Source: Gammaproteobacteria bacterium
GTDB lineage: Bacteria; Pseudomonadota; Gammaproteobacteria; Steroidobacterales; GCA-2729495
Direction: 5' to 3'
NCBI GenBank assembly: GCA_021773815.1
Contig: JAJFJS010000037.1
Span: 1 to 64,000 of the forward strand
DNA: 64,000 bases
Shown here piece after piece: positions 15,784-37,772 of the stretch (positions are counted from its first letter, which is position 1; every line of letters begins with the position of its first letter). The translations under genes and the position numbers were made by a program. The notes below the pieces were generated by a model, which was not told the origin of the DNA, searched no databases, and saw only the letters and a list, made by a program, of their open reading frames with translations.

Positions 15784-15920
15784 TGATGGTGATGGGTGGA
15801 CTTTAAGTGACACCATCTTGGTGGGCGCGCTCTGCACGATCGCAAGGATATGCGGTGGAACTTAGGCCCGGAAAACCATTGGTTTTCCGGGCGATCCACC
15901 GACCCCGGCATTATGAGTGC
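15784..15920 (-). repeat. tRNA-Met-derived dispersed repeat, copy 1
   Basis: Compared with the intact tRNA-Met at 37696-37772, this copy starts with the tRNA 3' end (acceptor strand and T-stem, ending ...GGTGGACT on the plus strand). About 95 bases then replace part of the T-loop. The tRNA sequence resumes for 25 identical bases (15896-15920, CCACCGACCCCGGCATTATG then AGTGC). The insert carries a 13-bp palindromic arm pair, GCCCGGAAAACCA/TGGTTTTCCGGGC. The 5' half of the tRNA is missing, so it cannot make a tRNA. It has the same orientation as copies 2 and 3. See copies at 22078 and 33815. Confidence 0.85.
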
Positions 15921-16111
15921 GATTCTTTAACTCTAATGATTCGACTCAACCGCCGGGATAGAAGTCCCTATCCTTAACGCCATTCGAGACGATTCAATCA
16001 CGCCAATACTTGAAAATGACCCAACATTCATCTCTTTGGCGAGCGTGAAATGCGACCATATTTGTAAATATAGGATACACTTAAACAACTCTGCTTTACC
16101 TGAGGGCCATC

Positions 16112-18238
16112 ATGGAGCCGGACTCTGAATTGCACCGAGGATTCAGACTAGGCGAGTGGGAAGTCAGACCCGCAGAAGGTCTGCTGATTGGACTTCAGGG
16201 ACGACGTCGTCTGCAGCCGAAATGCATCGACGTTCTTATGTGCCTGGTCGAACACGAGGATCAAGTTGTCACACGTGACGAGATCCTGCGCACGGTTTGG
16301 GGTGAGCGTGCCTTTACCGATGAACCGCTGACCCGCTGTATCGGCGATCTGCGCAAAGCGCTCGGGGATAACCGGGAAAAGCCTCAGTACGTCCAGACCA
16401 TTCCCAAACGAGGCTACCGGCTGATCACCAAGGTTATTCCTTTATCCCCATCTGAACCAGAACCAGAACCAGAACCTGAAACTGCGCCGGCACCAGAAGC
16501 CAAACCCACATACTTTTCAGCACTGGCCACATACCGTTTGCCGGCAGCCTTGTTGGCCGGCCTGGCCGCTATTTTTACGGCTATTGGCTTGTTATCGCCG
16601 ACAACCAATCAAAACGTTCAAACAACACTGACGACAAACGACCATTCGATTGCAGTCCTGCCATTCGAGGCCATGACTTCTGGCACGAACAACGACTGGA
16701 TGGGCCGCGGCATTTCGGAGGATTTACTCAATGTGCTGGCCCGGATCGACGGCCTGGAAGTCGCGGCGCGCACCTCATCATTCAGACCCTCCCTGCAAAG
16801 CATGGACATCCGCGATATCGGCAAGGAACTGAACGTGCGTTATGTCCTCGAGGGCAGTATCCGGCGCAGTGACGATCGACTCAAGATCGCAGCCCAGCTG
16901 ATCGATACGAGCTCCGGTTATCACCTGTGGTCGGAGGTGTATAACCGCACGACGTCGGACGTTTTCACAATCCAGTCCGAGATCGCCGAACGCGTCGTCA
17001 AGGCCCTGAAACTGGTCACGCCGATCGGTTTGTCGTCGGAACAATTTGCCCGCTCGACGGAAAGCGTCGATGCCTATGATTACTACCTGCAGGCCCGCAG
17101 TTTTCTTGACGGGCCGACGACCGTGGAAGCCATCAGCAACGCCATCCGGTTCTACGAACGGGCGCTCGAGTTCGACCCTGAATATGGCGAGGCCTATGCC
17201 GGGCTGTGCTCGGTGCGCCTCAAAGCCGTCGGCGATAACCAGGCGCCGGATACGATGCCGGCAGTCAGACAAGCCTGCGATGCAGCCACAAAGTATGCGC
17301 CCGAATCACCACTGACCCGCACGGCGCTCGGCAAGCTACGTCGGATTTCGGGCGAATTGCAGCTTGCCGAGGATGAATTTTTACAGGTCATCGAGCAGTA
17401 TCCGGCCTACACGGAGGCTCGGGTCGAACTGGCGCTGGTGTATGCCGAACGCGGCAATCTTGAAGCAGCGGAACGGGCCTATCAGGAAGCCATCGAGGTC
17501 GGCCCCGGTGACCCACTGGGCTACTCGCACTATTGCCTGTTCCTGTGGACGAACGGACGCGCCGCCGAGGCCATTCCAATGTGCCAAAGGGTCACAGAGC
17601 TACAGCCCGGCAGCGCCCAGGCCTACAGCAATCTCGGCATTGCCTATGGCGTCTCCGGAGATTTCGAACAGGCCGCGGTCGCCTATCGCGAGGCCATCGC
17701 GCGCAAACCCTCGTCACTGGCCTATTCGAACATCGGCATCAATTATTACTATCTCGGACGCTACGAAGATGCTGCCGTCATGTTCCGGGAAGCGATCAAG
17801 CTGGCACCGAGGAATTTCACGTTTTGGGGTAACCTCGGCGATGCATTGCTGCAGCTTCCCGACCAAGAGCAGGAGACCGCCGCCGCGTATCGCGAAGCCC
17901 GTAAGTTGGCTGAACTGGATCTGGAGATCAATCCGGATCAGGACTTTACGCTGGCAGCACTAGCCCACTTTTGCGCCCGGCTCGGGGACTTCGCATGCGC
18001 GCGAAACAGGCTCGAAGCCAGTCTGGCCGCGGAGTCCACCGAATTTTACAAGTATTACTACGCCGCGCTCGCCTACATTCAAATGGACGAGTATGAGAAT
18101 GCCGTTGCAGAAACCATGCGTGCCGTGGAATTCGGTTTCCCGCTGGAGATGCTCGAAGCCGAACCATTGCTCGCATCGGTCAGGGGAAATGAACGCCTGA
18201 CCTTGTTAATAGAAGAAGAAACCGACACTCGTAAGTGA
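16112..18238 (+). CDS. CadC/ToxR-like membrane regulator with TPR sensor domain
   Basis: A 708-residue one-component regulator. Residues ~8-100 form an OmpR/PhoB-type winged helix (RRRLQPKCIDVLMCLVEHED, VVTRDEILRTVWG, LTRCIGDLRKALGD, YVQTIPKRGYRL). A Pro/Glu-rich linker (EPEPEPETAPAPEAKP) leads to one transmembrane helix (about 148-170). The periplasmic part begins with a TolB/FlgO-like domain (SIAVLPFEAMTSG, GRGISEDLLNVLARIDGLEV, YVLEGSIRRSDDRLKIAAQL, IDTSSGYHLWSE). About seven tetratricopeptide repeats follow up to the C-terminus. Such proteins are inner-membrane transcription factors that bind DNA directly from the membrane. A secreted protein of unknown function follows after 26 bases and is probably co-transcribed. 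The input signal is unknown. Confidence 0.88.
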   Translation: MEPDSELHRGFRLGEWEVRPAEGLLIGLQGRRRLQPKCIDVLMCLVEHEDQVVTRDEILRTVWGERAFTDEPLTRCIGDLRKALGDNREKPQYVQTIPKRGYRLITKVIPLSPSEPEPEPEPETAPAPEAKPTYFSALATYRLPAALLAGLAAIFTAIGLLSPTTNQNVQTTLTTNDHSIAVLPFEAMTSGTNNDWMGRGISEDLLNVLARIDGLEVAARTSSFRPSLQSMDIRDIGKELNVRYVLEGSIRRSDDRLKIAAQLIDTSSGYHLWSEVYNRTTSDVFTIQSEIAERVVKALKLVTPIGLSSEQFARSTESVDAYDYYLQARSFLDGPTTVEAISNAIRFYERALEFDPEYGEAYAGLCSVRLKAVGDNQAPDTMPAVRQACDAATKYAPESPLTRTALGKLRRISGELQLAEDEFLQVIEQYPAYTEARVELALVYAERGNLEAAERAYQEAIEVGPGDPLGYSHYCLFLWTNGRAAEAIPMCQRVTELQPGSAQAYSNLGIAYGVSGDFEQAAVAYREAIARKPSSLAYSNIGINYYYLGRYEDAAVMFREAIKLAPRNFTFWGNLGDALLQLPDQEQETAAAYREARKLAELDLEINPDQDFTLAALAHFCARLGDFACARNRLEASLAAESTEFYKYYYAALAYIQMDEYENAVAETMRAVEFGFPLEMLEAEPLLASVRGNERLTLLIEEETDTRK

Positions 18239-18264
18239 CTACTCACAACAACAGGGGAGATGAC

Positions 18265-18909
18265 ATGAAAATAATGAATAAAAAACTAATGCTGTTGGCC
18301 GGACTGATGACGCTGACCATAACAAGCTCGGCCTACGGGTCCACCGAAGGGCTGGCGCCGGTACTACCCGCCGTTGGTCAGGGTCAGAAACCATTGGGCA
18401 TTGATAACTGCCCGGTGATGAAGAGATATAAGGGCAACGATCGCCGTGTCGAGATCATCGTCGACAAGTTTGGCAACATTTACCTCGACTCCCACGACAA
18501 GCAAAAGGATTTCTGGCACAAAGACACCCTGAGCTGGAAGATATTAACCACTCCATTCCAGCGGACGGCTAAAGGTACGGGTGCGGAAATTGAAGAGTAT
18601 GAAATTCAGTTCAGGACAGAAATCCCCGATTGCGCGCTTAGTCCTGATGCCCCGCAAGCCTGGCCCTGCGATCCTCAGGGTAATAAAAATAATTGGAAAA
18701 ACGGAAATTCGGGCAAATACAAAGGCAATCAAAAGATTTCCTGCAAGATTCGACCTGACGGGGCCCCAGGACATGAAGGCGCCACTAAATGGGATTACTG
18801 TTACGACATCAAAGTCACGACCAAGAGTGGAGATATAATTAATGTGGATCCGGTCGGCGGCGGCAATGGCTGCGGCGGCTGCCACCTTACGGAGAAGATC
18901 CCCCAATAG
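18265..18909 (+). CDS. Secreted protein with C-terminal CxxCH motif, function unknown
   Basis: I do not recognise this 214-residue protein. It has a signal peptide (MNKKLMLLAGLMTLTITSSA) and eight cysteines in the mature part. Its C-terminus, GGGNGCGGCHLTEKIP then Q, contains a CGGCH motif that could attach a c-type heme, although a single terminal CxxCH may also bind metal or form a disulfide. The middle is Lys/Asn/Gly-rich (GNKNNWKNGNSGKYKGN). The start at ATG 18265 is chosen for its AGGGGAG ribosome binding site. It follows the membrane regulator gene closely and is followed by a strong terminator, so the two genes form one unit. Confidence 0.65.
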   Translation: MKIMNKKLMLLAGLMTLTITSSAYGSTEGLAPVLPAVGQGQKPLGIDNCPVMKRYKGNDRRVEIIVDKFGNIYLDSHDKQKDFWHKDTLSWKILTTPFQRTAKGTGAEIEEYEIQFRTEIPDCALSPDAPQAWPCDPQGNKNNWKNGNSGKYKGNQKISCKIRPDGAPGHEGATKWDYCYDIKVTTKSGDIINVDPVGGGNGCGGCHLTEKIPQ

Positions 18910-18947
18910 AGATAATCCCTGAGTTTCAGCCAACTGGCTTATTCGAT

Positions 18948-18999
18948 AGCCTGGGGTATCACGGCTCAGTCACCGGGGCACCCCAGGCTGATTTTTTTC
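18948..18999 (+). terminator. Rho-independent terminator of the regulator/secreted-protein unit
   Basis: A 10-bp perfect stem (AGCCTGGGGT / ACCCCAGGCT) with a 22-base loop is followed by GATTTTTTTC. It lies about 40 bases after the secreted-protein stop. Confidence 0.8.
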
Positions 19000-19171
19000 T
19001 ACAGTAAACTTTTTTGGTCAATAATGACCATTATTGGCAAATTCCATACAAAAAGCGGTTTTTGCCGGCAATAAAACCCGTTTTTCCTCAGTTCTCAGAG
19101 CGCCCCGCTCGCGATCATTTCTCCCAAGCCCGACGAACGGGCCGAACGTCAACCCAGTCAGGAGAAATGTC

Positions 19172-19276
19172 ATGTTCCAGAAAATCTACGAAATCGTTAC
19201 GCAGTGCTCGATCTACTTCATCATCGTGCTGGCCTACTCGTACAGCCTCTATCAAGTCGGGTCACCGATGGCATGA
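19172..19276 (+). CDS. Possible 34-residue single-helix membrane peptide
   Basis: A good ribosome binding site (CAGGAGAAATGTC before ATG) precedes a 34-codon frame: MFQKIYEIVTQ followed by a hydrophobic helix (CSIYFIIVLAYSYSLYQV) and GSPMA. The spacing of the Shine-Dalgarno sequence and the single-helix shape support a real small protein. I know no family for it. It stands alone after the terminator at 18948-18999. Confidence 0.48.
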   Translation: MFQKIYEIVTQCSIYFIIVLAYSYSLYQVGSPMA

Positions 19277-19373
19277 AGCCAACCGAATGCAAAGAATCCC
19301 TGGCAATGTCAATGCGGACGACTCGATGAGCCTGCGGCTAATCCTCCAACATTGAGCCGCCCGGTTGGCATCA

Positions 19374-19439
19374 TGGGCAAAAATGGCTTGCCCATACATT
19401 CCAAAGCCGGAATACACCAATTCTTCGTGTATTCCGGCT
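19374..19439. other. Two consecutive hairpins in intergenic DNA
   Basis: TGGGCAA/TTGCCCA (19374-19394) is followed by a perfect 12-bp stem AGCCGGAATACA/TGTATTCCGGCT (19405-19439, 11-base loop). There is no T-run, so these are not classic terminators. The surrounding ~500 bases (19277-19774) contain no gene I can support. Confidence 0.5.
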
Positions 19440-19774
19440 GCCGGGGGCCTCATTCCTGCCCCATCAGCGTCTGCTTTTCCGGACGATTATTTCTTCGGAA
19501 ACATGAACCGGAACCGGATACGACTGGACCAGTCGCCGAGTAAGCCCCTTGCGGCTGCCTATTTGGCCACCCGGGCACGGCGGGTATTGGAGGCAAAACA
19601 CATCTGGTAACTGTTGTCCCGTTACACCATCTGAACCGGCAGGCCGGGTGGACACTTGCGCCGCATTCCTGGCATGGATGATGCCCTTCAAAAAATCACC
19701 AAGTTTCACTACAGTCGGCCCCGGTTGCGACCCAAAGATAGCCCCTGAATAACCGGTTTTTACTCTGACCCCAT

Positions 19775-20158
19775 TTATTGGATTACTTTTGCTACGCCAG
19801 AAAAAAATCCGGATACATAAGAAATCATCCAAAAGCCCCACACCATTATCGAAATCCTATGGAAATTTGTGATTGAACGATCACTTTTATTGCGATAGGC
19901 CAACATCGCCCAAACAACGTGGATTGTCATTAAAGCAATAGAGATAAAACCAAGGATCGCGTGCCAGGTAAATACTATTCCACCAACACCGATATAGGTG
20001 AGTACTGTCGCTAAATAATCGGTAAAAAGACCAATCAGAAAAACATAAATATGCCAGAGTTTTAGACGCTTTGAAAACCACCCTGCCCACACGCTAACTG
20101 AATAAAATACTAGCGCAATTGTGAAAAGGACGATTCCCCATAATATTATTGCTGGCAT
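19775..20158 (-). CDS. HsmA-like (TIGR03987-type) small membrane protein
   Basis: A 127-residue protein with four membrane helices and family-typical features: an N-terminal helix IILWGIVLFTIALVFYSVSV, RLKLWHIYVFLIGLFTDYLA, a central FTWHAILGFISIALMTIHVV and a final NFHRISIMVWGFWMISYVSG. Conserved histidines in the helices (LWH, TWH, TIH, FH) could bind heme or metal. CAGGAG precedes ATG 20158. It has no close same-strand neighbour and no known activity. Confidence 0.65.
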   Translation of the reverse strand: MPAIILWGIVLFTIALVFYSVSVWAGWFSKRLKLWHIYVFLIGLFTDYLATVLTYIGVGGIVFTWHAILGFISIALMTIHVVWAMLAYRNKSDRSITNFHRISIMVWGFWMISYVSGFFSGVAKVIQ

Positions 20159-20525
20159 GTAATGCTCCTGAAATACATTTGAATAGTAGTCTTAGGTTCT
20201 GAAGATTTTGATTCGCACGAAAGTTAACCCGGGTGATGCTCCAGAGAGCAACCCGATCACAAGGAAAAGGATGGAAACTGTCCGAACAACTATCGATTAA
20301 TTCGTATTTTCGATCTTATGAAATATTATTCCCTCGGCAAAACTCCACCGGTGAAATCATATTTTTGATATGAGGTATAAGCACAGTAGGTGCGCACCCG
20401 TTTAAGGCAAGGTGATTTTATGCAATTGAGTCCTATAGCTGTGTCAACCGTAAGTTAATAGATAAGAATGCTATGCGATCGTCTGTGTTAGCTAACTGAT
20501 AATCATTCGTATACAAACAAATGAA
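20159..20525. other. Intergenic, AT-rich
   Basis: About 370 bases between the HsmA-like gene and the palindrome at 20526. No gene or recognisable site is seen. Confidence 0.4.
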
Positions 20526-20570
20526 AAAGGTGTCAGGTTTATTTAGAAGGAAAATAAACCTGACACCTTT
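20526..20570. repeat. 19-bp perfect inverted repeat (GGTGTCAGGTTTATTT-type)
   Basis: The arms (20526-20544 and 20552-20570) are perfectly complementary around a 7-base loop and begin AAAGGTGTCAGGTTT. The motif is of the kind dispersed in many gammaproteobacterial genomes beside or away from REP-type Y1 transposases. A decayed cousin with AAAGGTGTCA and TTTATTT occurs at about 21850. It lies 25 bases upstream of the next gene and could also act as a bidirectional terminator. Confidence 0.75.
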
Positions 20571-20594
20571 ATCGTTATCCAAACGGGGTTTTCC

Positions 20595-21800
20595 TTGGTA
20601 AGGCCGCCATATATTGTGAAAAATCGCTCCGCAATCCATGCATCCCAATCGCAATGGGCTAATTTGCTGCGGCAGCGGGCGCTCGACTTACCGGTCAGCC
20701 ACGATCTCGACAAGCTGCTGAATCGGTATCGTCGTCACGGCCGCTTCTATGCCGACAGAATCGGTACCGCAGATGCGTGGACACAAGTCCGGCCGTTGGA
20801 GAAACCGGAGCTGGCCCTCATTCCCCTCGATCCCGCAACGCCGACCAGAGAGGCGCGAACCTCCGGCACCAGCGGACTGCAGGTCACGATTCACAATAGC
20901 CGGCGCGAACGTGAGTTTCGCCGGGCGCTTCTCTACAGGCCGCAGATTTTCTATGACCTGCCGGAGTCCGTGACGCAGGTCGTATTCGTCGACGGTCGCT
21001 GGTGTGCCGACCCGAACATGAGTCCCAAGGAGTTCACTTTTGCCGGGCGCCACTATCGCACCTGGTTTACCGGCGCCAGCGCGGAACCGGCGGCCATCCT
21101 GAACCTGCTTGAGACGCTGCGGCCCCAGCTGATTCGAGGCATAGCCAGTGGCATCGTTCGGTTTATCGGTGAGTCACAACGCTCGCTCGATCACATCGGG
21201 GTCAGCATCATCGGACCGGGCGGAGAATTTCTGACCAACGAGTGGCGGAACTTGATGGAACAGGCGTTCGGCGCAACGGTGCTGGATCGATATGGCTCGA
21301 CCGAGACCGGCGCGATCGCCTGGCAATGCCCACATTGTCATCGCTATCACGCCAATACTGACGAAATCATATTGGAAGCGGACCCCGCAGGCCTGATTGC
21401 GACACCATTGTTTGTTTCATCGCAACCGCTATTGCGTTATCGCCTCGGCGACATCGTCACGTTCGACAATGAGAGAACTGATTGCCTCGTGCAACTGCCG
21501 ACGATCACGATTAATGTGGCCCGTCGCGACGACTGGATCATCGACGGCGCGGGTCGGAGGATATCGCCGCTGAGCTTTCAATTTGAACAGGTACCGCACC
21601 TGACGGCATGGCGACTTCATCAACTCATCGACGGGTCACTGCATCTGTTTTTCGATTCGGACCGACCGGAGATCGCAAGGCAGATGCTCGTTCAACATCT
21701 CGCCGAGGCTGTGCCGGACCGGCCGTACCGGATCACCCGGGGCATCTGGAAGCTGGATCGGCCCGGTAAATTCAAACGCGTCAGCTCGGATCTTGCCTGA
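20595..21800 (+). CDS. PaaK-like adenylate-forming enzyme (acyl-CoA ligase family)
   Basis: A ~400-residue ANL-superfamily protein closest in layout to phenylacetate-CoA ligase and coenzyme F390 synthetase. The phosphate-binding loop is ARTSGTSGLQ and the adenine region is VLDRYGSTETGAIAWQCPHC. A strand follows with DEIILE, and RYRLGDIVTF holds the ribose-binding Asp. The C-terminal subdomain ends with KLDRPGKFKRV, which supplies the catalytic Lys. Substrate is unknown. The start is uncertain: TTG 20595 or GTG 20616 are in frame, the next ATG is far inside. It stands alone between repeat-bearing spacers. Confidence 0.75.
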   Translation: MVRPPYIVKNRSAIHASQSQWANLLRQRALDLPVSHDLDKLLNRYRRHGRFYADRIGTADAWTQVRPLEKPELALIPLDPATPTREARTSGTSGLQVTIHNSRREREFRRALLYRPQIFYDLPESVTQVVFVDGRWCADPNMSPKEFTFAGRHYRTWFTGASAEPAAILNLLETLRPQLIRGIASGIVRFIGESQRSLDHIGVSIIGPGGEFLTNEWRNLMEQAFGATVLDRYGSTETGAIAWQCPHCHRYHANTDEIILEADPAGLIATPLFVSSQPLLRYRLGDIVTFDNERTDCLVQLPTITINVARRDDWIIDGAGRRISPLSFQFEQVPHLTAWRLHQLIDGSLHLFFDSDRPEIARQMLVQHLAEAVPDRPYRITRGIWKLDRPGKFKRVSSDLA

Positions 21801-22077
21801 GTCAATTTCTCGACGCATTCCATGCAGCGCGTGTCGGTAATAATCCGTAAAGGTGTCAAATTTATTTGACCTGTCTTTAGGCAAGTTATTTCATGGCTAA
21901 TTCGGCAACCGATCAAATATTGTTAACAGGCGATTACTGAAACCGTCCTTCCATGCCACGTTATCCCCGCCAGTTTATCTCAGGCATGCCGCTACACGTC
22001 GTATAACGGGGTCCCGCAATTTTTCCCTACTGACCATTCTGAATTTTGTGCGAGAGAAGGTAAGCGCTTGATTATGT

Positions 22078-22295
22078 TGGTGGTGATGGGTGGGCTTTGA
22101 GTGACACCCTCTATGTGGACATGCTCTGCGCGACCGAAAAGATTTGCAGCGGAACTCATGCCCGGAAAACCATTGGTTTTTTGGGCGAACCACCGACCCC
22201 GGCATTTCGATGTGCAGGGATCATAAGTGCCGCAGAGACCATGGATGACCGAGAGCGGCGCGAGCGCGGCAGAATATTTGTAAGTAATTGTTTTA
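22078..22295 (-). repeat. tRNA-Met-derived dispersed repeat, copy 2
   Basis: It begins with the full CCA-end complement and acceptor/T-stem strand of tRNA-Met (TGGTGGTGATGGGTGG...) and carries the same ~95-base insert (GTGACACCC ... GCCCGGAAAACCATTGG). It resumes with CCACCGACCCCGGCATT and then diverges from the tRNA. A further ~95 bases (GTGCAGGGAT ... GCGGCGCGAG) are shared with copy 3 but not with copy 1. The right arm of the palindrome has decayed. It lies about 340 bases before the first gene of the carbohydrate cluster. The rest of 21801-22634 holds no gene. Confidence 0.85.
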
Positions 22296-22634
22296 ATTAA
22301 CAATCACCAAAGGGCGTCCATTGCTATGCACATGAATGTGACCGGAAAAGTGTCGCCGGATCAGCGCCGGACGCACAAACGTTAGTCGATCGAGAGGTGG
22401 CAGCGGTGCTTGCCTTTACACCGCACGCCCGAGCGGCGCCGCAAGGAATAAGCCCGGACAACTCCGAATCCCGCGCGTCTCCCGCAGCAACTTCAACGCG
22501 AAAAAATACACGATGTAACGGCCTTGTCCCGCTTGCCTCCGAAAGCCCCTTTTCCCTTAGTGAACGATGGATCCGTCGACCCTGACTCTACCGGATTCAT
22601 GCTACTCTGAGCCAAGACATTCACATGCAGTTGA

Positions 22635-24995
22635 ATGGACCCTAGAAGCCAGATCAGCATGATGCCTGCCAAAAAATCAATTGCGCTCATCGGAAATTTC
22701 CTCCCCCGGCAATGTGGAATTGCCACCTTCACTTTTGATCTCGCCGCAGCAATTCTCGAGAACGACCCGACTATAGACTGTTCGATCGTGGCCATGAATG
22801 ACCGTCACGAGGGCTATGAATACCCGCCAGAGGTACGATTCCAGATCAGTCAGGATAATCTCAACGAGTACGGTCTCGCCGCCGGCTTCCTGAACTTGCG
22901 CGATCCGGATGTGGTTTGCCTGCAGCACGAATACGGCATATTTGGCGGCCAGCGGGGCAGCTTCATCATAGAGCTAGTGCAAGATCTTAAGAGTCCGTTG
23001 ATTACGACCCTGCACACGGTACTTAAAGATCCCTCGTCGCAAGAACGGAAAATCATTACGCAGCTTGCCGCCCTTTCCGATCGATTGGTCGTGATGAGCG
23101 AACGTGGTGCCGATTTTCTTCGTGACATTTACCATGTACCCGAACGCAAGATCGCTTTGATTCATCATGGAATTCCCGATGTGCCGTTTCTGGAATCCGA
23201 TCCGATCAAGAGCAAGGTGGTCGCAGACGGCAAAATCGTAGTTCTCACATTCGGACTGCTGTCCCCGGGTAAGGGTATCGAGTATATGGTCGATGCCTTA
23301 CCGGAAATTGTCAGCTCACATCCCGAGGTACTCTATTTTATCGTTGGCGCAACGCATCCGCATTTGAAAGCCGAGAGTGGCGAGGAATATCGCCTGAGCC
23401 TGCACCTTCGGGCAAAGGAGTTAGGCGTCGCCAAAAACATCGTCTTCCATGATCGCTTCCTGGAGCGTGATGAATTACTCGATATCATTCGGGCTGCAGA
23501 CATCTACGTTACCCCATACTTGAACGAAGCCCAGATAGTCTCCGGCACGCTGGCCTATGCCCTGGGAGCCGGCAAGGCGGTCGTATCGACTCCCTATTGG
23601 CATGCTCAGGAGATGCTGGCCGCCGAGCGCGGAAGGTTAGTTCCGTTTAAAGACCACGTCGCTTTGGCCCGCGAGGTCAACTATCTTCTGGACCATCCCG
23701 ACGAACGCCTCACGATGCGGCGGGCTGCCTATGAATACTGTCGACCGATGGTCATGAAGAAAATGGGCCGCCGCTATCTGGATTTGTTCGCCGATGCGAG
23801 ATCCCCACGTTCGAAGAAATCGGATATCGCTGTGCTGGATACCCTCAGTCAGCGCGAGCAGCGATTGCCGCAGGTCAACCTGAAACATCTGCGCGCAATG
23901 ACAGATGACACCGGCATACTGCAACATGCGAAATACACAATCCCGAACCGCGGGCACGGATACTGCGTCGATGACAACGCACGCGCGCTGATCGTCACGA
24001 CCAGGGCAAACGATCTGAATAGAACCGACGCTAGCGTGGCGGATTTGTCCGCTGTCTACCTGAGCTTCCTCGACGACGCATTCAATCCGGACAACGGCAG
24101 ATTTCGCAACTTCATGAGCTACGAGCGTCAGTGGCTCGAGGAAGTCGGCTCAGAGGATTCTCACGGCCGAGCGCTATGGGCGCTGGGCATAAAGGCAGGC
24201 TGGGGGCGTCGCAGCGGACAGGTCGCTCTCGCGACGGAACTCTTTAACAACGCGCTGCCCGCACTGGACACTTTTAGCGATTCCCGCGCGATCGCGTTTC
24301 CTATTCTGGGCATCCAGGCATACCTGCGGCGCAACGACGGTGACCAGCGCGCCTGGGAGATCCTGCGATCGCTTGGCGACAGGCTCACCAGCCGCTTTAC
24401 ACAATACGCCACCAACGACTGGAATTGGCACGAAGATCATTTAACCTACGACAATGCTCGTTTGCCGCAGGCACTCATGGCCTGTGGTCGGGCCACACAA
24501 AATAGCGACATGGTTGCCCTCGGTCTGGATGTCCTCAAGTGGCTGCGTGACGTTCAGCTCGATCCGTCCAACCGATGCTTTGCCCCGGTTGGCAACGAGG
24601 GCTGGTTCCCGAAGTCAGGCGCCAAAGCCCGATACGCACAGCAGCCCCTGGAGGCTGCCGCCATGATCGGCGCCAGCATTGAAGCGTATGAATGCACCCA
24701 CAGCGAGGAATGGGTTGACCTGGCCACCACGTGCTTCAACTGGCACCTGGGCAAGAACGACCAACAACTGCAAATTTACGATCACGCCAGCGGCGGCTGC
24801 CGGGACGGACTCCAGCGAGACGGCGTCAATGAAAACCAGGGAGCAGAATCAACACTGTCTTACATACTCTCACTGCTCGCCATTTATAATCTCCGAGGTT
24901 TAACGACCAAGCAAAGAGGTGTAGAAGAAGCGGAGTTCGAAAACCATTCGGTTGACAGCTCCGGACTGCGACTCAAGGTTATTGACTTGCTTTGA
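22635..24995 (+). CDS. GT4 glycosyltransferase fused to an (alpha/alpha)-barrel-like domain
   Basis: A 786-residue two-domain protein. Residues ~8-385 form a GT-B glycosyltransferase of family 4: an N-terminal SIALIGNFLPRQCGIATFTF loop, VVCLQHEYGIFGG, and the donor-binding half with VLTFGLLSPGKGIEYMVDAL, DIIRAADIYVTPYLNEAQIV and SGTLAYALGAGKAVVSTPYW. Residues ~420-770 form an all-helical domain with GYCVDDNARALI, SEDSHGRALWALG, WNWHEDHLTYDNARLPQALM, and GWFPKSGAKARYAQQPLEAA. This resembles (alpha/alpha)6 glycosidase folds. The fusion suggests a sugar transferase combined with a glycan-binding or trimming module. The start could be ATG 22635, or 22659/22662. It opens the cluster on the plus strand. 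Confidence 0.82.
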   Translation: MDPRSQISMMPAKKSIALIGNFLPRQCGIATFTFDLAAAILENDPTIDCSIVAMNDRHEGYEYPPEVRFQISQDNLNEYGLAAGFLNLRDPDVVCLQHEYGIFGGQRGSFIIELVQDLKSPLITTLHTVLKDPSSQERKIITQLAALSDRLVVMSERGADFLRDIYHVPERKIALIHHGIPDVPFLESDPIKSKVVADGKIVVLTFGLLSPGKGIEYMVDALPEIVSSHPEVLYFIVGATHPHLKAESGEEYRLSLHLRAKELGVAKNIVFHDRFLERDELLDIIRAADIYVTPYLNEAQIVSGTLAYALGAGKAVVSTPYWHAQEMLAAERGRLVPFKDHVALAREVNYLLDHPDERLTMRRAAYEYCRPMVMKKMGRRYLDLFADARSPRSKKSDIAVLDTLSQREQRLPQVNLKHLRAMTDDTGILQHAKYTIPNRGHGYCVDDNARALIVTTRANDLNRTDASVADLSAVYLSFLDDAFNPDNGRFRNFMSYERQWLEEVGSEDSHGRALWALGIKAGWGRRSGQVALATELFNNALPALDTFSDSRAIAFPILGIQAYLRRNDGDQRAWEILRSLGDRLTSRFTQYATNDWNWHEDHLTYDNARLPQALMACGRATQNSDMVALGLDVLKWLRDVQLDPSNRCFAPVGNEGWFPKSGAKARYAQQPLEAAAMIGASIEAYECTHSEEWVDLATTCFNWHLGKNDQQLQIYDHASGGCRDGLQRDGVNENQGAESTLSYILSLLAIYNLRGLTTKQRGVEEAEFENHSVDSSGLRLKVIDLL

Positions 24996-25017
24996 GCCGC
25001 GACAATTACGCCGAACC

Positions 25018-30056: not shown

Positions 30057-31556
30057 TCAATTCGGCCGATAGGCCTTAAGGCGTGACAAAAGCTCCGGCA
30101 GCGAAACGGTGGCCACTCTGCACCGTTGATCAGCGATGCCATAGGGCACGACCAGGGCATCGCCGTGGATCATGCTGCCGCAGGTGTACACCACGTTGGG
30201 CACGTATCCGTCTCGTTCATGCTCATCGGGCGCGAGCACGGGTTCATCGAGTCTGCCAATAACAATGGAAGGATCGTCGATATCCAACAGTTCGGCCCAG
30301 ATGCTGTATTTACGCATCGGTCCCACGCCATGAAATAATGCCAGCCACCCTGCAGGCGTTTCGACCGGAGATCCGCAGTTGCCAACCTGAACGAACTCCA
30401 ACGGATGGATGGGCTCCTGCAATAATTTCGCATCTTCCCAGAACCGCAGACTAGTCGAGGACATGATGTAATTATTCACACCGTCCTGACGTGACAGCAT
30501 CACGTATTGACCATTGATCTTCCGCGGAAACAAGGCCATGCCCTTGTTTTGCGCCGCGCGGCCGCTCAGCGTATGCATCTTGAACGTCAGGAAATCGTCA
30601 GTCTCGAGAAGCTGCGGCAGGATTTCAAAACCATTGTAGGCGGTATAAGTCGCATAATACGTAACCGACCCGTCGTCGCCGATGAATCGCACGAAGCGCG
30701 CATCCTCAATGCCTGATGATTCGTTCTGCGACACCGGGAAAATTACTCTCTCGGAGATTGGCTGCTCGGGACTGAAAACCACTTCATAGTTCGAGCGGGC
30801 CAACCACCACGCTGTATCAATTGCGTGGTTCTTGTCTGCCGTCCTGAACTTGGTCGATTTTAGAATATCAATCTGTTTTTCAAGCTCGCCGATCGTGAAC
30901 TGCTCCCCCAATTTTTCCAGCAAACGATTCATGACCCGATCACGGGCCCCCATTTCCTCGAGCTTGCGCTTGAAATGAAGCCGGTCATAGACGGGGTCCG
31001 TGTGGATCTCGGGTGTTGCCACGTACTGGCTCACGGGATCGAAGAAAATATCGTGGTTCGGATCGACGATCCCGCTGCGAAACTCGATGGACGAGACATG
31101 ACCCTCACCGGTTGCCCTGAAGCTCATGATGAAACGCAACGATCCCTTTGCCACACCTTTCTGATCGGGGTGTGGCACTATGGAAGGATTAAAGAGCGCC
31201 GCCGCTTCAACCGAATATTCGGAAGAAAAGTACGCACCGAGCAGGAGCCTCTGTTCGACGGACAAGGACATGTGCTTCGGAACATACTCTGAAATTCTTT
31301 TGAAGTTTTTGCCCAGAACCTCCCTGAAATTCCGGTGACGCGCGGCAAACTCCTGAAAAATGCTCTCCAGCAAGTTATGCGTATTTTCATCGCCCAGGTC
31401 TGCGACTCGCTCGATCAGGCGCTTGATGCGCACCGGGTCACCGGGGATATGCGGGCGCATGATTACGCGAGAACTCTGGGCATTCAGCAACGTCGAACGC
31501 CGCTTTACCAGCTGAGTCCGCTGTTCTTTAATCCTCATAGCTGTTTGCGCATCCAA
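30057..31556 (-). CDS. GH130-family long-form protein (B)
   Basis: A 499-residue GH130 member with an extra N-terminal helical region of ~120 residues (IKRLIERVADLGDENTHNLL and on) before the propeller. The propeller carries SSGIEDARFVRFIGDDGSVT with the family Asp, KGMALFPRKINGQYVMLSRQ, and CGSPVETPAGWLALFHGVGP. The E-D-A-R variant and the length set it apart from the two shorter paralogues at 28971 and 32702, so its specificity probably differs. It is on the opposite strand from those two, convergent with A and divergent from the GT4 gene at 31680. The start could also be M7 (MRIKEQRTQL). Confidence 0.85.
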   Translation of the reverse strand: MDAQTAMRIKEQRTQLVKRRSTLLNAQSSRVIMRPHIPGDPVRIKRLIERVADLGDENTHNLLESIFQEFAARHRNFREVLGKNFKRISEYVPKHMSLSVEQRLLLGAYFSSEYSVEAAALFNPSIVPHPDQKGVAKGSLRFIMSFRATGEGHVSSIEFRSGIVDPNHDIFFDPVSQYVATPEIHTDPVYDRLHFKRKLEEMGARDRVMNRLLEKLGEQFTIGELEKQIDILKSTKFRTADKNHAIDTAWWLARSNYEVVFSPEQPISERVIFPVSQNESSGIEDARFVRFIGDDGSVTYYATYTAYNGFEILPQLLETDDFLTFKMHTLSGRAAQNKGMALFPRKINGQYVMLSRQDGVNNYIMSSTSLRFWEDAKLLQEPIHPLEFVQVGNCGSPVETPAGWLALFHGVGPMRKYSIWAELLDIDDPSIVIGRLDEPVLAPDEHERDGYVPNVVYTCGSMIHGDALVVPYGIADQRCRVATVSLPELLSRLKAYRPN

Positions 31557-31679
31557 AAGACCCGACTAACAATGAACCGGAACCAGACGATCCGAGTAAA
31601 GCGGCAAGAAGTATAGCGGTGAAGGCAAGGGTACGCTTGATTTATGAGTCACAATTCTAAACATTGACGGATTGAAAAA

Positions 31680-32705
31680 ATGGCCATTCGGATCGCTGTT
31701 CTCAGCCCTGTCTCATGGCGCACGCCACCGCGTCATTATGGGCCATGGGAATCAGTCGTCAGCCTGCTGACCGAGGAGCTCGTGCGAATGGGCCTGGACG
31801 TGACCCTGTTCGCCACCGGAGATTCCCAGACCAGCGGAACGCTGGTCGCCGTATGCCCAAGCCCCTATTCAGAGGATTCTTCGGTTGATCCGAAGGTCGC
31901 GGAGTGCCTGCACATATCCGAGGTATTCGAGCGCGCCGCAGATTTCGATCTTATTCATAACAATTTTGACTTTCTGCCGCTGACATATTCTCGGCTAACG
32001 AATACACCGGTCGTGACGACAATCCATGGTTTCTCGTCCCCGGCCATTCTGCCCGTGTACAAGAAATACGACACCAGTAGTCACTATGTAGCGATCAGCG
32101 ATGCTGATCGGTCGCCGGCACTGGACTACATCGCCACGGTCTACCATGGAATCGACACAGCACAATTCCAATTTAGCGAATCAGCCGGAGAGTATCTCCT
32201 TTTCTTCGGGCGCATTCATCCGGACAAGGGTGTGCTGGAAGCCGTTCAGGTCGCCAGGCAAGCGGGGATGAAACTTGTTATCGCCGGCATCATCCAGGAT
32301 CGTGATTACTTCCGGGAACTGATCGAACCCCATATTGACGGCGACCGGGTAGAATATCTCGGGTCGGTAGGGCCGGCGCAAAGGTCACGTGTGCTCGGCG
32401 GGGCGCTGGCGTTATTGCATCTGATCAACTTCGATGAGCCGTTCGGGCTGAGCCTCGTTGAATCACTGGCGTGCGGCACCCCGGTCATCGCGTTTGGCCG
32501 CGGCTCGATTCCGGAAATCATCAAACACGGCGAGACCGGCTACATCGTTGCGGGTGTCGAACAGGCCGTGGAGGCTGTGGCCGCCGTATCATCACTCGAC
32601 AGAACCGCTTGTCGGCAGGATGCCGAACAACGTTTCTCCCGGGCCCGCATGGCCAGCGACTATGTCCGCGTGTACAACGAGATTCTGCAGGGGAACCAGG
32701 CATGA
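31680..32705 (+). CDS. GT4-family glycosyltransferase
   Basis: A 341-residue GT-B transferase typical of those found next to GH130 genes. The N-terminal domain opens IAVLSPVSWRTPPRHYGPWE and contains FDLIHNNFDFLPLTYSRL. The C-terminal domain has YLLFFGRIHPDKGVLEAVQV, then LLHLINFDEPFGLSLVESLA with the donor-binding E-x7-E motif, and GTPVIAFGRGSIPEIIKHGE. It is cytoplasmic. Its stop overlaps the start of the next GH130 gene (ATGA at 32702-32705), so transferase and phosphorylase are translationally coupled. Confidence 0.9.
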   Translation: MAIRIAVLSPVSWRTPPRHYGPWESVVSLLTEELVRMGLDVTLFATGDSQTSGTLVAVCPSPYSEDSSVDPKVAECLHISEVFERAADFDLIHNNFDFLPLTYSRLTNTPVVTTIHGFSSPAILPVYKKYDTSSHYVAISDADRSPALDYIATVYHGIDTAQFQFSESAGEYLLFFGRIHPDKGVLEAVQVARQAGMKLVIAGIIQDRDYFRELIEPHIDGDRVEYLGSVGPAQRSRVLGGALALLHLINFDEPFGLSLVESLACGTPVIAFGRGSIPEIIKHGETGYIVAGVEQAVEAVAAVSSLDRTACRQDAEQRFSRARMASDYVRVYNEILQGNQA

Positions 32706-33640
32706 ACAATGGACCATTGGTGAAACGATATCGGCGCAACCCTATCCTCACCAAGCATGATGTCCCCTACCCCGTCGAGACGGTTCACAATGCCGGAGCA
32801 GTCAAATTCGAGGGCCGGTACATCCTGCTGTTTCGATCTCACCGGCATAACGGGCGATCGATCATCGGCATTGCACGCAGTGACGATGGTTATGACTTTG
32901 ACGTGGATCCCGAGCCATTCATGGTGCCCTCCAAAGAAGCGGCGTTCGCGCAATTTGAAGAATACGGCGTCGAAGATCCAAGGATCTGCCCGATCGATGA
33001 CGCTTATTACATCACCTATAGCGCCTATTCCAGATTCGGTGTGCGCATCGGCCTGGCAAGAACCTACGACTTCAAGACCATCGAAAGAATTTCACTGATC
33101 AGCGAACCGGACATGCGCAATGTAGTCATATTCCCACAAACCTTCGACGGTCGTTACGCTCGTCTGGACCGGCCGCACTCGGAGATCAACGCCTGGTCCA
33201 TCTGGTTATCCTGGTCCCGGGACCTCGTGCACTGGGGAGACTCGGTGCCGGTCATACAACCCATGTCCTATCACTGGGATGAGATGAAAATCGGTCCGGG
33301 CGCAACGCCGATCAGAACTCCGGACGGTTGGCTGAATATCTTCCACGGTGTCTTCCCCACCATGGACGGCTCCGTCTATCGGCTCGGCGTGGCACTGCAC
33401 GATATTGATGACCCGGCAAAAGTTCTGGGCGTCGCCGACGACTGGATACTGTCACCCGAGGACCCGTGGGAATTGACGGGCTATGTCCACAACGTTGTGT
33501 TTAGCTGCGGAGCGATTGCCGAGGACGACGGGACGTTAAAAATATATTGGGGCGCCGCGGACACTGTCATGTGTGTCGGCACTGCCACAATTGCGGATCT
33601 GGTTCAGCTATGCCGTGACAAACCCAGAGCGGCATTGTGA
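32702..33640 (+). CDS. GH130-family beta-mannoside phosphorylase-like enzyme (C)
   Basis: A 312-residue GH130 member. The catalytic Asp is in YGVEDPRICPIDD. Basic phosphate-site candidates are in LLFRSHRHNGRS, the Arg of YARLDRPHSE, and His in IFHGVFPTMD. Length and motifs match the phosphorylase-type subfamilies and protein A at 28971. The start is ATG 32702, which overlaps the GT4 stop; a longer frame reading back to 32471 only shadows the GT4 gene. It closes the carbohydrate cluster, about 175 bases before repeat copy 3. Confidence 0.87.
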   Translation: MNNGPLVKRYRRNPILTKHDVPYPVETVHNAGAVKFEGRYILLFRSHRHNGRSIIGIARSDDGYDFDVDPEPFMVPSKEAAFAQFEEYGVEDPRICPIDDAYYITYSAYSRFGVRIGLARTYDFKTIERISLISEPDMRNVVIFPQTFDGRYARLDRPHSEINAWSIWLSWSRDLVHWGDSVPVIQPMSYHWDEMKIGPGATPIRTPDGWLNIFHGVFPTMDGSVYRLGVALHDIDDPAKVLGVADDWILSPEDPWELTGYVHNVVFSCGAIAEDDGTLKIYWGAADTVMCVGTATIADLVQLCRDKPRAAL

Positions 33641-33814
33641 AATCCAACGACGTAGGCAAAGACTGCTAATTATTTTCGGCCGGACTAAGCATCGTTTTCC
33701 CGGCAAGTTGGCAATACCAAATCGACTGAAAGCCTGAGATGAGCCACCAAATCACTGCGCTTTTTCCCACAGTTCGTGGCGCGTCTGCCCTGCAGTCTGT
33801 GCAAGTGGTTGATT

Positions 33815-34042
33815 TGGTGGTGATGGGTGAACTTTAAGTGACACCCTCTTTGTGGGCACGCTCTGCGCGACCGCAAAGATTTGCGGTGGAACTTATGCTC
33901 GGAAAACCATTGGTTTTCCGAGCATAAGTTCCACCGACCCCGGCATTTCGACGTGCAGGGATGCACAAGTGCCGCAGAGGCCATGGATGGCCGAGCGCGG
34001 CGCGAGAGCGACTGTTCAGTTGTAAGTAAAGGTTTTAACTGA
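33815..34042 (-). repeat. tRNA-Met-derived dispersed repeat, copy 3
   Basis: The best preserved copy. It has the tRNA-Met 3' end (TGGTGGTGATGGGTG), an insert with GTGACACCC, then a perfect 51-bp palindrome at 33885-33935 (25-bp arms, single central T at 33910) whose right arm runs into the tRNA-like CCACCGACCCCGGCATT. A tail shared with copy 2 extends to about 34042. It is directly repeated relative to copies 1 and 2 and lies 3.7 kb from the intact tRNA-Met. The rest of 33641-34126 holds no gene. Confidence 0.87.
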
Positions 34043-34126
34043 TGAATGCCAAGAAGCGTTCGTTGCTATCTGCAGTACCGAGCATAACGATGCATAACCG
34101 GGCCCAGAGAATCTCCCGAAGCTGCT

Positions 34127-37100
34127 TCAAACTTTCTGGCCTCTCATAATCCACGCAATGCCAATTAGGCCAATAATTAGCAATTCCAGACTGCCGGGTT
34201 CAGGAACGGCGATAGCCGCGCCGATAGTCGAGTTACCAAATAAAAGCTCGAAACGGAATCCGTCACAGCAATTTCTGGTTGTCATTTCCAAATTAAAATC
34301 CAGATCCAGAAGCCCGAACGTTGTAAGCGTCGATATGCTTCCGATATCGAGCGTCTGACCACTGAAAAAGTCCACAGCCAAACTAACGTCTGAAAATAAT
34401 TCGTCAACAATCATGGTGCCTTCTGCCTCAACCTGAAACAGCAGCGAGTCAAATCCAAAGTTTGTTGACTGAGCCCCCAAAAATCCAATCAGCAAATTTT
34501 GAGGATCCGGAAGCAATGCAATATCAAGATCATATTCCAGTTGTGCGCTATGCATTGTCATTAAGCCATCAGAAAACTGTGAGTGCTCAGCTCCCAGCAC
34601 CATAAGACCCAAAATATCACTACTGCCGCCCACATCGAAATTGAGACCAACTGATTCTCTGGATGGCGAACCGCTCAGAGCAGCCTCAGCAACGGTGTCA
34701 GCAGGCATGCTTGTCCCAAACGCAGCAGCCTGAAAGAAACTTGCCGAATTCAATGACAGGTTATCAGTACCTGTATTTGTTCGCGCCTGCACTGTACTCC
34801 CACCGATGCTCGATGCATCTGCGTATGCGGTGACAGATGGCACTAATTGACCACGACGCGCAGTTGTAGCTGAAGCTGTTGATTCAGAGTTCCCCAAAAT
34901 GCCAATCGTTCCTGATTGCGAGGCTGCGCGTGCGATAACGGTCCCGCCGCCGGCGCCGAAAGCAGCAGCGCTAGCATCACCTGCCGATCTTGTATTTCTG
35001 TCTCCGCTGTATGCTCCCCGGGCATTTGCTTCGACAGTTACAAGTTCATTCCCCATACTGCTACCTCTTGCCGTGGAAGAAGCCGAACCTCCATCTCCAC
35101 CTGTACCTATACCTGATCGAATACCGCCTCCGTTTCCGCCAAAAGCATTATCAGATACGCTGATGACGCTATTTCCCCGCACGGTACCGGTGGAAGAGCT
35201 AACTGCAGCGCCACCATTTCCAGCAATAACAGGAATAGTGCTGAAATCAGCATAACCGCCGGCCCCACCACGGGCCGTGCCGATTACCGATAGAGCATGA
35301 CCATCGCCTGTGGTCGTGCCGAATGCTGTGGAACTTGCACCCCCCCCGGTTCCGCTATTTGCACCTCGAGTCCCTAAACCTCCCTCTCCACCGGTACTCG
35401 ATGCAGTCACTGATAACGATCCGGCCTCATTTCTTCCATGAGCAAGAGATGTGGCGATTCCTCCATCTGTAGCTGAGCCACCATTAAGGCCCTGATGGGC
35501 CCCTCCTTTACCGCCAGCGGCTGATACATCTATATATAATTCCGATGAGCTACCGGAAAAATCGAGCGCACTTGTCGCGTCACCCGCAGATCCGGCCAGA
35601 CTACCGGTATTATTTGTTGATCCGCCCCTCCCCGCGACAGCTTCCTGACTCAGCCTCAATTCGCCGACAGTTGCGCCTCCAACGGCATTACTTAGATTGA
35701 CGCTCCCTCCATCGCTGCCATCACCATCGTTGCTGCCACCTCCCGAACCACCGATTGCAACACCAGAAACCGATACGTTGCCGCCGCCAGTTGACTCGCC
35801 CCAGACACCAATCGAATCATATCCAAGTATTGCCCGGCCACCAGGTGTTACCGGGCCATCGGCAGAAGAACTTTGGCTCGTACCGAGTGCCCCATGTGCC
35901 GTAGCAGTAGCCGTCACGTCATTCGCACTCGTAATGTGAATCGCAGCTATAGAAGACCCGGCTTCACCATGCTGAGCACCTCCCGATCCTTTGCCGCCTC
36001 GGCCGCCATAAGCATCGACTTCGGCAACAATGTCGCCGCCGGCTGGGTTGGCTGTTGTGAGTGACGAAATAGCATCTCCACCGTTGCCAGCCATATTGCT
36101 TTCACCTGAAGCATCACCACCGGCTCCTCCAAAAGCAGTTTGCTCCAGGATCAGGCGGCCGGAGGTTGAACCCGATACTGAATTAATTTGCTCGGCCGTC
36201 GTACCAGGCGCTCCGTTAGATTGAATACCATTGCCGCCCCAGCCGGCTTTTATAACGCTGGAGACAGTGACCATTCCTCCACCACTGGAACTCCCTGAAG
36301 CGATAGCTTTCGCTACCCCACCCACATTGCCATCGTTGCCTGAGCCATATCCCCTACCACCGTCACCGCCACTGGCTTCAGCGGATACACTCACGGGCAG
36401 GTTGCCGGCATTCTCACCGCTCGCAGTCGACGATGCGGAGCCCCCTATATTGCTCTGGCCTTTTTGATTAAAAACAGAACCGGCGTAACCGCCTCTGGCA
36501 ACATCGTCAACATTTACTACGCTATTACCTTGAGCCACACCAGTGGAGGAGCTTTCGGCATCACCACCAGCCCCCGGTGTTGCCGAGTCATAACTGGGAA
36601 AGGGAAGTTGAAATCCGCTTGGGCCTCCAGGGCCACCATGTGCAGCGCCTGACGCACTGACGTTGTGACTATCGCCGCCTGATATTGCGATAACTTGAGA
36701 AAATGCATCACCCCCGTTACCGCCGTCAGCGCCCGTTGACCAACCGATACCGCCACCGGCGCCACCGGCGGCCGCCTCGGCTGACGCGGAGCCGTCCAGA
36801 CTGCTGGCCTCTGCTATCGTGTTCGCGGTACCGCCTGCGTTTGCATTCCCGGAAGCGCCATTGTTCCCACCACCTGCGCCGGCGCCGCCGGCGCCATTAT
36901 ATAAGCCGCTCAACCCGCTGCTCGCCGTTGATTTGGCAAACGCATCACCAGTGACAAGAATCGTACGAGCTATTGCAGATGCATCACCTCCGCGACCAGC
37001 ATCACCACCGGCGCCACCATCCGCATCTAAACCCGCGTCAATACCTTGGCCGCCGTCTCCTCCACTCCCGCCTCTGCCACCGGTTGCAGTTGCAATGTTT

Positions 37101-37291
37101 GAGCTATCCGCACTTACTGCTTTTGCTATCGCATCTTTTCCATCATCACCGTTGCTTCCCGACAACCCAGGATCTCCGGGAGCACCATTCATGCCATCTG
37201 CACCAGCACTTCCCGTCACATTCACAACTTCCGCATAAGCCGGGTGACTTACGATGAAACTTATAGTGATGGACAGCAGTACAGCGCGCAT
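34127..37291 (-). CDS. Glycine-rich repetitive PEP-CTERM surface protein
   Basis: A 1054-residue exported protein. A signal peptide (MRAVLLSITISFIVSHPAYA) is followed by a short collagen-like run (GADGMNGAPGDPGLSGSNGD). Then come ~800 residues of Gly/Ala/Ser-rich degenerate repeats of the type GGxGGxG ... SxASGxxxG and a ~190-residue beta-rich domain. The end is a PEP-CTERM tripartite tail: VPEPGS, a hydrophobic helix LELLIIGLIGIAWIM, and basic RGQKV. Such tails direct exosortase-dependent processing and surface export, usually in exopolysaccharide producers. No exosortase is in the window. Composition resembles PE_PGRS-like or ice-binding-like repeats, but I cannot assign a function. Confidence 0.85.
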   Translation of the reverse strand: MRAVLLSITISFIVSHPAYAEVVNVTGSAGADGMNGAPGDPGLSGSNGDDGKDAIAKAVSADSSNIATATGGRGGSGGDGGQGIDAGLDADGGAGGDAGRGGDASAIARTILVTGDAFAKSTASSGLSGLYNGAGGAGAGGGNNGASGNANAGGTANTIAEASSLDGSASAEAAAGGAGGGIGWSTGADGGNGGDAFSQVIAISGGDSHNVSASGAAHGGPGGPSGFQLPFPSYDSATPGAGGDAESSSTGVAQGNSVVNVDDVARGGYAGSVFNQKGQSNIGGSASSTASGENAGNLPVSVSAEASGGDGGRGYGSGNDGNVGGVAKAIASGSSSGGGMVTVSSVIKAGWGGNGIQSNGAPGTTAEQINSVSGSTSGRLILEQTAFGGAGGDASGESNMAGNGGDAISSLTTANPAGGDIVAEVDAYGGRGGKGSGGAQHGEAGSSIAAIHITSANDVTATATAHGALGTSQSSSADGPVTPGGRAILGYDSIGVWGESTGGGNVSVSGVAIGGSGGGSNDGDGSDGGSVNLSNAVGGATVGELRLSQEAVAGRGGSTNNTGSLAGSAGDATSALDFSGSSSELYIDVSAAGGKGGAHQGLNGGSATDGGIATSLAHGRNEAGSLSVTASSTGGEGGLGTRGANSGTGGGASSTAFGTTTGDGHALSVIGTARGGAGGYADFSTIPVIAGNGGAAVSSSTGTVRGNSVISVSDNAFGGNGGGIRSGIGTGGDGGSASSTARGSSMGNELVTVEANARGAYSGDRNTRSAGDASAAAFGAGGGTVIARAASQSGTIGILGNSESTASATTARRGQLVPSVTAYADASSIGGSTVQARTNTGTDNLSLNSASFFQAAAFGTSMPADTVAEAALSGSPSRESVGLNFDVGGSSDILGLMVLGAEHSQFSDGLMTMHSAQLEYDLDIALLPDPQNLLIGFLGAQSTNFGFDSLLFQVEAEGTMIVDELFSDVSLAVDFFSGQTLDIGSISTLTTFGLLDLDFNLEMTTRNCCDGFRFELLFGNSTIGAAIAVPEPGSLELLIIGLIGIAWIMRGQKV

Positions 37292-37695
37292 TATTTACCT
37301 CCAAAACATGAGTTTAAAATAGAGTAGTTAATCAGACATGTCCAATTTAGGACTTTCTTATTTGAGAACGGATCTCACTAAAGTGATTTACATAATCACT
37401 AATACCTACTCAGAAGTGGCGCTATGAAAGAAAAATCACCAACCAGGTGATTGAAAAACACAATAAAAACTTATGGTTTTTTCAGGCGTGTGATCAGCAA
37501 ATCGACAACCAGATAAATTTGTTTAAAGAGCGAATGCTCAATTGTTTATGGATTTATTTCGGTAATCTCCGCCTCTACCCGCTCGTCGATTCGATTCAAG
37601 TCCACGGGAGTCGCGCCGCGACAAAGCCATGACTTACAGAGGCTTTCGACCCGCAAGGTTCGAGTACAACGATCGCTTGATCAGGCCGGGAAGGA
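37292..37695. other. Intergenic region between PEP-CTERM gene and tRNA-Met
   Basis: About 400 AT-rich bases holding the upstream region of the PEP-CTERM gene. A 61-codon plus-strand frame (37447-37632) has no ribosome binding site or recognisable motif and is not called. Confidence 0.4.
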
Positions 37696-37772
37696 TGGTG
37701 GTGATGGGTGGACTCGAACCACCGACCCCGGCATTATGAGTGCCGTGCTCTAACCAGCTGAGCTACATCACC
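37696..37772 (-). tRNA. tRNA-Met (anticodon CAT), elongator type
   Basis: A 77-base cloverleaf with encoded CCA. Acceptor stem GGTGATG/CATCACC, D-arm GCTC...GAGC, anticodon stem CGGCA/TGCCG with loop CTCATAA, T-stem GGTGG/CCACC with loop TTCGAGT. The perfect first acceptor pair and the lack of the three-G:C initiator anticodon stem favour elongator tRNA-Met over fMet; a tRNA-Ile2 with modified CAT is less likely. Its 3' half is the source of, or shares origin with, the repeats at 15784, 22078 and 33815. Confidence 0.95.

Follow-up and report, generated by a model that had tools for sequence, protein, structure and literature searches.

A 64,000-nucleotide stretch of a gammaproteobacterial genome (assembly GCA_021773815.1, contig JAJFJS010000037.1, positions 1–64,000; hereafter the window) holds an intact tRNA-Met gene and three copies of a repeat in which the 3′ part of that tRNA is interrupted by an insert of some 94 bases. 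The question that this locus raises is whether tRNA part and insert make up one repeat that moves as a unit, like a short interspersed nuclear element (SINE), or whether they have separate histories. The evidence makes it probable that two things are nested here: the tRNA parts would be attachment scars of genomic islands that accreted serially behind the tRNA gene, and the insert a dispersed mini-element that came later. An initial reading of the letters alone (the sequence-only reading) had left both a SINE-like repeat and a nested attachment site in play, and it is the nested arrangement that is borne out.

Displaced tRNA-Met halves in the window and in related genomes

The tRNA-Met (anticodon CAT; 37696–37772, minus strand; ARAGORN) is the presumed target of integration. 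Rfam matches 48 tRNAs in the genome, two of which have a CAT anticodon besides this one; these we take, by isotype hallmarks, to be Ile2-like (contig C14) and initiator-like (C32), and the window gene is probably the sole elongator tRNA-Met. The displaced 3′ halves lie on the minus strand, in the orientation of the tRNA, at 15784–15920 (copy 1), 22078–22214 (copy 2) and 33815–33955 (copy 3). In each, the tRNA 3′ end is matched exactly over 15–16 bases, followed by an insert of ∼94 bases (15801–15894, 22095–22188 and 33832–33925, minus strand; 78.7, 73.9 and 89 bits with the R2 model of the mini-element), after which exact tRNA identity resumes for 25, 21 and 17 bases, respectively. The sequence-only reading had described these three copies, their common orientation and a shared ∼95-base insert of one element family correctly, as well as the resumed identity in copies 1 and 3; its value of 17 for copy 2 has to be raised to 21.

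Searched against its own genome, copy 3 finds itself (E=8e-116), copy 2 (1e-64) and copy 1 (8e-41), so that the three copies are far beyond chance. The likeness outside the tRNA part, on which the proposal of an element family had been staked, is real for copies 2 and 3, which align over 256 bp at 82% and continue to resemble each other for ∼106 bp outside the tRNA part, a likeness that would be unexplained by a bare tRNA hitchhiker. Further copies had also been named as possible support. No fourth copy bearing the tRNA-Met part was found in the own genome with copy 3 as query, and five were found elsewhere, two in G002, which belongs to the same genus, and one each in G003, G029 and L135, a locus of a gammaproteobacterial metagenome-assembled genome (MAG; G567).

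The tRNA was searched against 24 genomes and a five-copy model, R1, against 40 genomes of the family, the own genome being in both sets. In family genomes, the stretch of tRNA-Met that runs from its anticodon loop to its 3′ end turns up again away from the gene, and twelve such 3′ halves in six genomes are uninterrupted (three each in G012 and G017, two each in G015 and G022, one each in G025 and G038), matching the tRNA over 39–48 nt. Nine of the twelve lie downstream of an intact tRNA-Met on the same contig; for the other three (two on G012:C128, one on G017:C56) the gene does not lie within the stretch examined. Among ten uninterrupted scars with inspected flanks, an upstream arm CAACGRACGYCC resembling that of the window copies is present at six and a close variant at two, with no clear arm at the remaining two. 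Segments in the arrays of relatives range from <1 kb to ∼13 kb. The interrupted scars number eight, the three of the window and the five listed above, the two in G002 lying 10.5 kb apart on one contig. Two more scars (G001 and the L135 genome) end early, in or beside the T-stem. The counts leave out the shortened scar on G001:C158, the L184 scar at 14094 and two 27-nt repeats at the tRNA-Met of G013, where the final 27 nt of the gene are twice repeated directly behind it at 115-bp spacing (L121 10448–10589).

The sequence-only reading had argued from the shared insert against repeated, independent integrase scars. The same half standing uninterrupted in six family genomes speaks against that claim, as does a comparison of one island: island B of the window (22215–33814) has a counterpart on contig C51 of G015, from another genus of the family, with four orthologues at 80–85% amino acid identity, and in G015 both ends are bounded by uninterrupted scars. 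The distal scars of the two islands, copy 2 in the window, have a GGA-loop hairpin in the arm in common. Since uninterrupted scars surround the same island, the insert came later than the scars. No mini-element was found in the array loci of G012, G015, G017, G022 and G038. Six genomes (G001, G004, G015, G022, G033 and G036) have a tyrosine integrase, or what remains of one, directly beside tRNA-Met, called in G004, G033 and G036 by similarity to the G022 protein; the G036 frame is open over 382 amino acids and that of G004 is broken. The identity block of the uninterrupted scars begins near CTCATAATGC, which is suggestive of a crossover in the 7-nt anticodon loop, although only suggestive.

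The insert could instead be a working arm of the island attachment site, with crossover 3′ of it in the T-stem or acceptor, so that tRNA-Met would be restored at each integration and an insert-bearing scar left behind. This scheme would produce the three serial interrupted scars with no need for conversion, and it agrees with the insert being present in every complete scar seen in insert-bearing genomes (three in the window, two in G002, one each in G003, G029 and L135). We nevertheless regard it as unlikely, given the uninterrupted scars of the same island in G015, an identity block that starts near the anticodon loop, and the occurrence of the mini-element in fragments of other tRNAs and at unrelated loci.

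By eye, the T-stem is fully paired in 10 of the 12 uninterrupted scars (the two others lie on G012:C128) versus four of the eight interrupted ones, a mismatch or wobble being present in copy 3, G029, G003 and L135. In this small sample the difference would fit a constraint that is relaxed once a scar is interrupted and the island locked in place.

Several arrays of relatives contain toxin–antitoxin-like matches in or beside them, to ParE at L120 2966–3259 and L185 591–965, and to HTH_3 (antitoxin-like) at L117 4721–5032 and L116 4018–4329. These short segments are, we presume, reminiscent of integron cassettes.

Structure, census and affinities of the mini-element

The insert is an independent dispersed element, separate from the tRNA part. 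In an alignment of 36 copies (A3; rows of 88–98 nt) it reads hairpin 1, TAARTTC, hairpin 2, TCAYTTA. Compensatory changes on both sides occur in 21 of 23 pairs, and 91% of the cells are paired compared with 33–46% when the partner is slid, a value equalled in none of 500 shuffles. An internal loop, TC/TC in 33 of the 36 copies, reads GA/GA on the opposite strand; tandem G–A pairs are stable. In copy 3, hairpin 1 lies inside a perfect 26-bp inverted repeat (33884–33909/33911–33936), which has there replaced the TTCG flank of the tRNA, as if corrected within the palindrome.

With R2, 77 copies were counted in 10 of the 40 family genomes (G018 alone has 42); since eight of these ten genomes supplied training rows (35 of the 36 training copies), the figure is a census and no independent proof. 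The copies in G568 share coordinates with those in G031, and the two were taken as the same genome. Outside the family sample, G567 has one copy and an Omnitrophota MAG (G564) three weak ones; among 369 genomes sampled across the class, the own genome alone matched at E 1e-4 under stricter filters. Phages and plasmids searched with copy 3 gave no match, as did plasmids searched with a free copy; a stricter genome pattern found nothing, and IMG/VR gave 1 and 38 pattern matches, none by model. Rfam 15 at gathering score matched tRNAs alone, and no account of the element turned up among the papers listed in literature searches; the letters of the motif occur in 22 papers, and none of the 20 listed concerns the subject by title. 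The copies form a family of hairpin elements that is well supported and has no counterpart in Rfam.

For distant motif matches, in Clostridia and elsewhere, no homology is claimed: ten such loci share the ends at 22–28 bits only, and none of their six genomes (G560–G563, G565 and G566) passes E 0.01. Asymmetric ends TAARTTCCGCC...GGCGTCAYTTAA occur in L142, L143, L144, L146, L149 and L151 (Clostridia MAGs), L132 and L141 (small MAG) and L137 (Omnitrophota), and a clear first hairpin is mostly absent from these loci.

Strong covariation would also be expected if the insert were a gene for a structured RNA, such as a regulatory one, situated in tRNA remnants by chance. G–T and A–C mismatches are equally common in A3 (26 and 29 of 826 cells), so neither strand appears to be selected as RNA, where one strand should be favoured. 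The element moreover lies in either orientation with respect to the tRNA, and apart from tRNAs no Rfam 15 family is reached at gathering score. An RNA gene is accordingly a rather improbable explanation.

Nor does the mini-element qualify, by definition, as a repetitive extragenic palindromic (REP) sequence, a SINE or a miniature inverted-repeat transposable element (MITE). It resembles REP, REPIN, BIME and CGTC repeats (PMC3733652) in being small, dispersed, palindromic and non-coding, and many of the G018 copies lie within REPs; CGTC repeats have one stem of 8–9 bp with a loop of 4–5 bp, unlike the ∼90 bp, two hairpins and TC/TC internal loop found here. The single 20–40 bp palindrome with a GTAG or CGTC tag expected of such repeats is not what A3 contains, which is two hairpins in 88–98 nt. 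With the REP-targeting insertion sequences IS1397, IS621 and ISPpu9 (PMC1525189) it shares insertion inside palindromic targets, although it has no coding sequence and also targets tRNA fragments. The target duplication of a MITE is missing: joined flanks rebuild tRNA without duplication, most clearly at an initiator-tRNA fragment described below. Non-autonomous elements derived from IS200/IS605 (palindrome-associated transposable elements, PATEs) have hairpins, no target duplication and a precise empty site. The mini-element has hairpins and a precise empty site, and no target duplication was seen, but unlike PATEs it lacks a constant one-sided target motif and is not linked to Y1 transposase genes. 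An IS200/IS605 or REP-associated tyrosine transposase (RAYT) derivative was rejected: eight Y1 loci yielded one half motif, belonging to a free copy. Two of six element-bearing genomes tested had no Y1 transposase match, and no linkage was found. Integron attC sites have R′/R″ boxes GTTRRRY and RYYYAAC, and by inspection the conserved ends TAARTTC and TCAYTTA do not correspond to these.

Insertion sites and proposed spread of the interrupted scar

For the analysis of sites, nine of 85 model matches were set aside (duplicates, weak ones, a truncated one and one on the opposite strand) and one copy in L279 was added. The joined flanks of the resulting 77 copies were matched to 104 tRNA sequences. 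A tRNA match ran through the junction in 11 copies, compared with 1 of 120 mispaired controls, and in the other 66 there was none; the mini-element is over-represented in tRNA-gene fragments. Eight of the eleven interrupt the T-loop of tRNA-Met, one the T-loop of the initiator tRNA and two the anticodon loop of tRNA-Phe. The initiator copy is in the own genome, on C32, in a displaced fragment ∼85 nt past that gene, and is inverted and of another subfamily. The tRNA-Phe sites are partial copies on G002:C16 and G007:C205, and on G002:C16 interrupted and empty partial copies adjoin. These partial 5′ copies of tRNA-Phe (G002:C16 ∼19950–20240, L125; G007:C205 1–310, L270) have the D-loop replaced by a hairpin, GTCGC GAA GCGAC; the G002 units lie upstream of tRNA-Phe, and two units in tandem, with the mini-element, stand at the contig end in G007. 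By eye, 11 of the 77 copies sit in the loop of a REP (GCGGCTA | AAGCCGC or a near match), and roughly twelve others are bordered on the right by half a REP; the G018 copies are likely to have spread REP-borne.

A SINE-like, tRNA-derived repeat whose tRNA part and insert move together could account for the two being joined in eight scars of five genomes, and for the partial tRNA-Phe units with the mini-element, which form a tandem in G007 and have an empty neighbour in G002. It is highly improbable, given that the insert shows no sign of a tRNA origin, that three tRNA types are hit, that 66 of the 77 copies have no tRNA through the junction and that the window copies mark the ends of islands that follow the tRNA gene.

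We return to two nested elements and propose that three genomic islands joined in tandem downstream of tRNA-Met, each leaving a displaced 3′ half, probably through crossover in the anticodon loop, catalysed by a tyrosine integrase that the contig no longer carries. A non-autonomous two-hairpin DNA element of ∼90 bp, presumably mobile at the DNA level, would have entered the T-loop of one such scar, and the interrupted scar may then have spread among the islands of the genus through recombination or through transfer of islands carrying it. Excision through an uninterrupted scar should rebuild tRNA-Met, while excision through an interrupted one would put ∼90 bases into its T-loop; as this is apparently the only elongator tRNA-Met, interrupted scars would lock the islands in. 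One mobile element would thus parasitize the attachment scars of another, which suggests a simple route by which genomic islands become fixed, and the empty-site controls at tRNA fragments offer a starting point for finding the insertion rule and the enzyme of the mini-element.

In a tree of the inserts, c1, c2, c3 and g2b form one clade (97/90), and a topology that unites all eight Met inserts in a single clade is not rejected (p-AU 0.26). We infer one insertion followed by spread, a single origin being neither rejected nor proven; the alternative would be that a preferred site was entered repeatedly.

Several results weigh against these proposals. The tree as it stands splits the eight Met inserts, the label needing three changes, and places g2a and G029 beside a free G002 copy (88/89). 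Serial integration at the anticodon loop alone cannot multiply an interrupted scar, so its spread needs conversion or another route. The scar in G025 is uninterrupted, yet two tandem mini-elements, enclosed by the 9-bp inverted repeat GGTGGGCTT/AAGCCCACC, lie ∼70 bp past it (L100 5782–5971); tandem or overlapping pairs occur in G018 and G023 too. A scan of the window contig (C80) for the integrase domain PF00589 gave no match, and a synteny comparison did not confirm the distal boundary at copy 1. No more than three of the tRNA sites are clearly independent, and the association was noticed after the fact. Finally, hairpin loops as such are not significantly preferred: with the 77 copies thinned to 57 by flank similarity, stems of at least 5 occur at 5 of 57 sites (2.3 expected, p=0.067) and stems of at least 4 at 14 of 57 (7.7 expected), and a second test, in which three of 31 copies were skipped for unclear ends, showed no excess. 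A bolder version, in which a new class of mobile mini-element is recognized by its structure, with the GA pairs on the active strand, homes to hairpin loops of tRNA genes and REPs and makes excisable islands permanent, is possible but doubtful.

The three islands and their neighbouring repeats

Island A (33956–37695, 3.7 kb) holds a single 1,054-amino acid open reading frame (ORF; 34127–37291, minus strand) without a Pfam or NCBIfam match, and has no integrase match. Island B (11.6 kb), between copy 3 at its proximal and copy 2 at its distal end, carries glycosyltransferase and GH130 genes. Island C (15921–22077, 6.2 kb), with copy 1 at its distal end, likewise has no integrase match; it encodes a TPR/Trans_reg_C regulator (16112–18238) and an ORF at 20595–21800 with weak similarity to AMP-ligase. 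Conserved arms adjoin copy 2 (22215–22327; this arm includes the GGA-loop hairpin segment and recurs at copy 3 and at the distal scar of island B in G015) and copy 3 (33956–34069).

Measured against tRNA genomic islands in general, a displaced 3′ tRNA-gene fragment lies downstream of the gene in the same orientation and the content at this tRNA differs among related genomes, but no integrase was matched on contig C80. Tandem islands at tRNA or tmRNA genes with integrase-less members are known from the Islander survey (PMC4383910), whose table has 4 tandems of three or more, and from Dehalococcoides ssrA (PMC3146451). Those islands share with ours the intact tRNA gene, equally oriented 3′ fragments displaced downstream of it, varied cargo and integrase-less members; they differ from ours, in which a second mobile element breaks the scars at one fixed position of the T-loop and the array is without integrase.

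Inverted repeats AAATAAACCTGACACCTTTA (20520–20576 and 21848–21867) flank the ORF of island C with weak AMP-ligase similarity, and AATAAACCCGGCACCTTT ends near the G002 scars resemble them. A separate repeat with two GGA-loop hairpins (AGGGA and ATGGAT) occurs at 22207–22270 and 33948–34010, in the scar arms of the window, and at 15954–16008 of G000:C57, beside tmRNA; we take these to resemble CsrA-type GGA hairpins.

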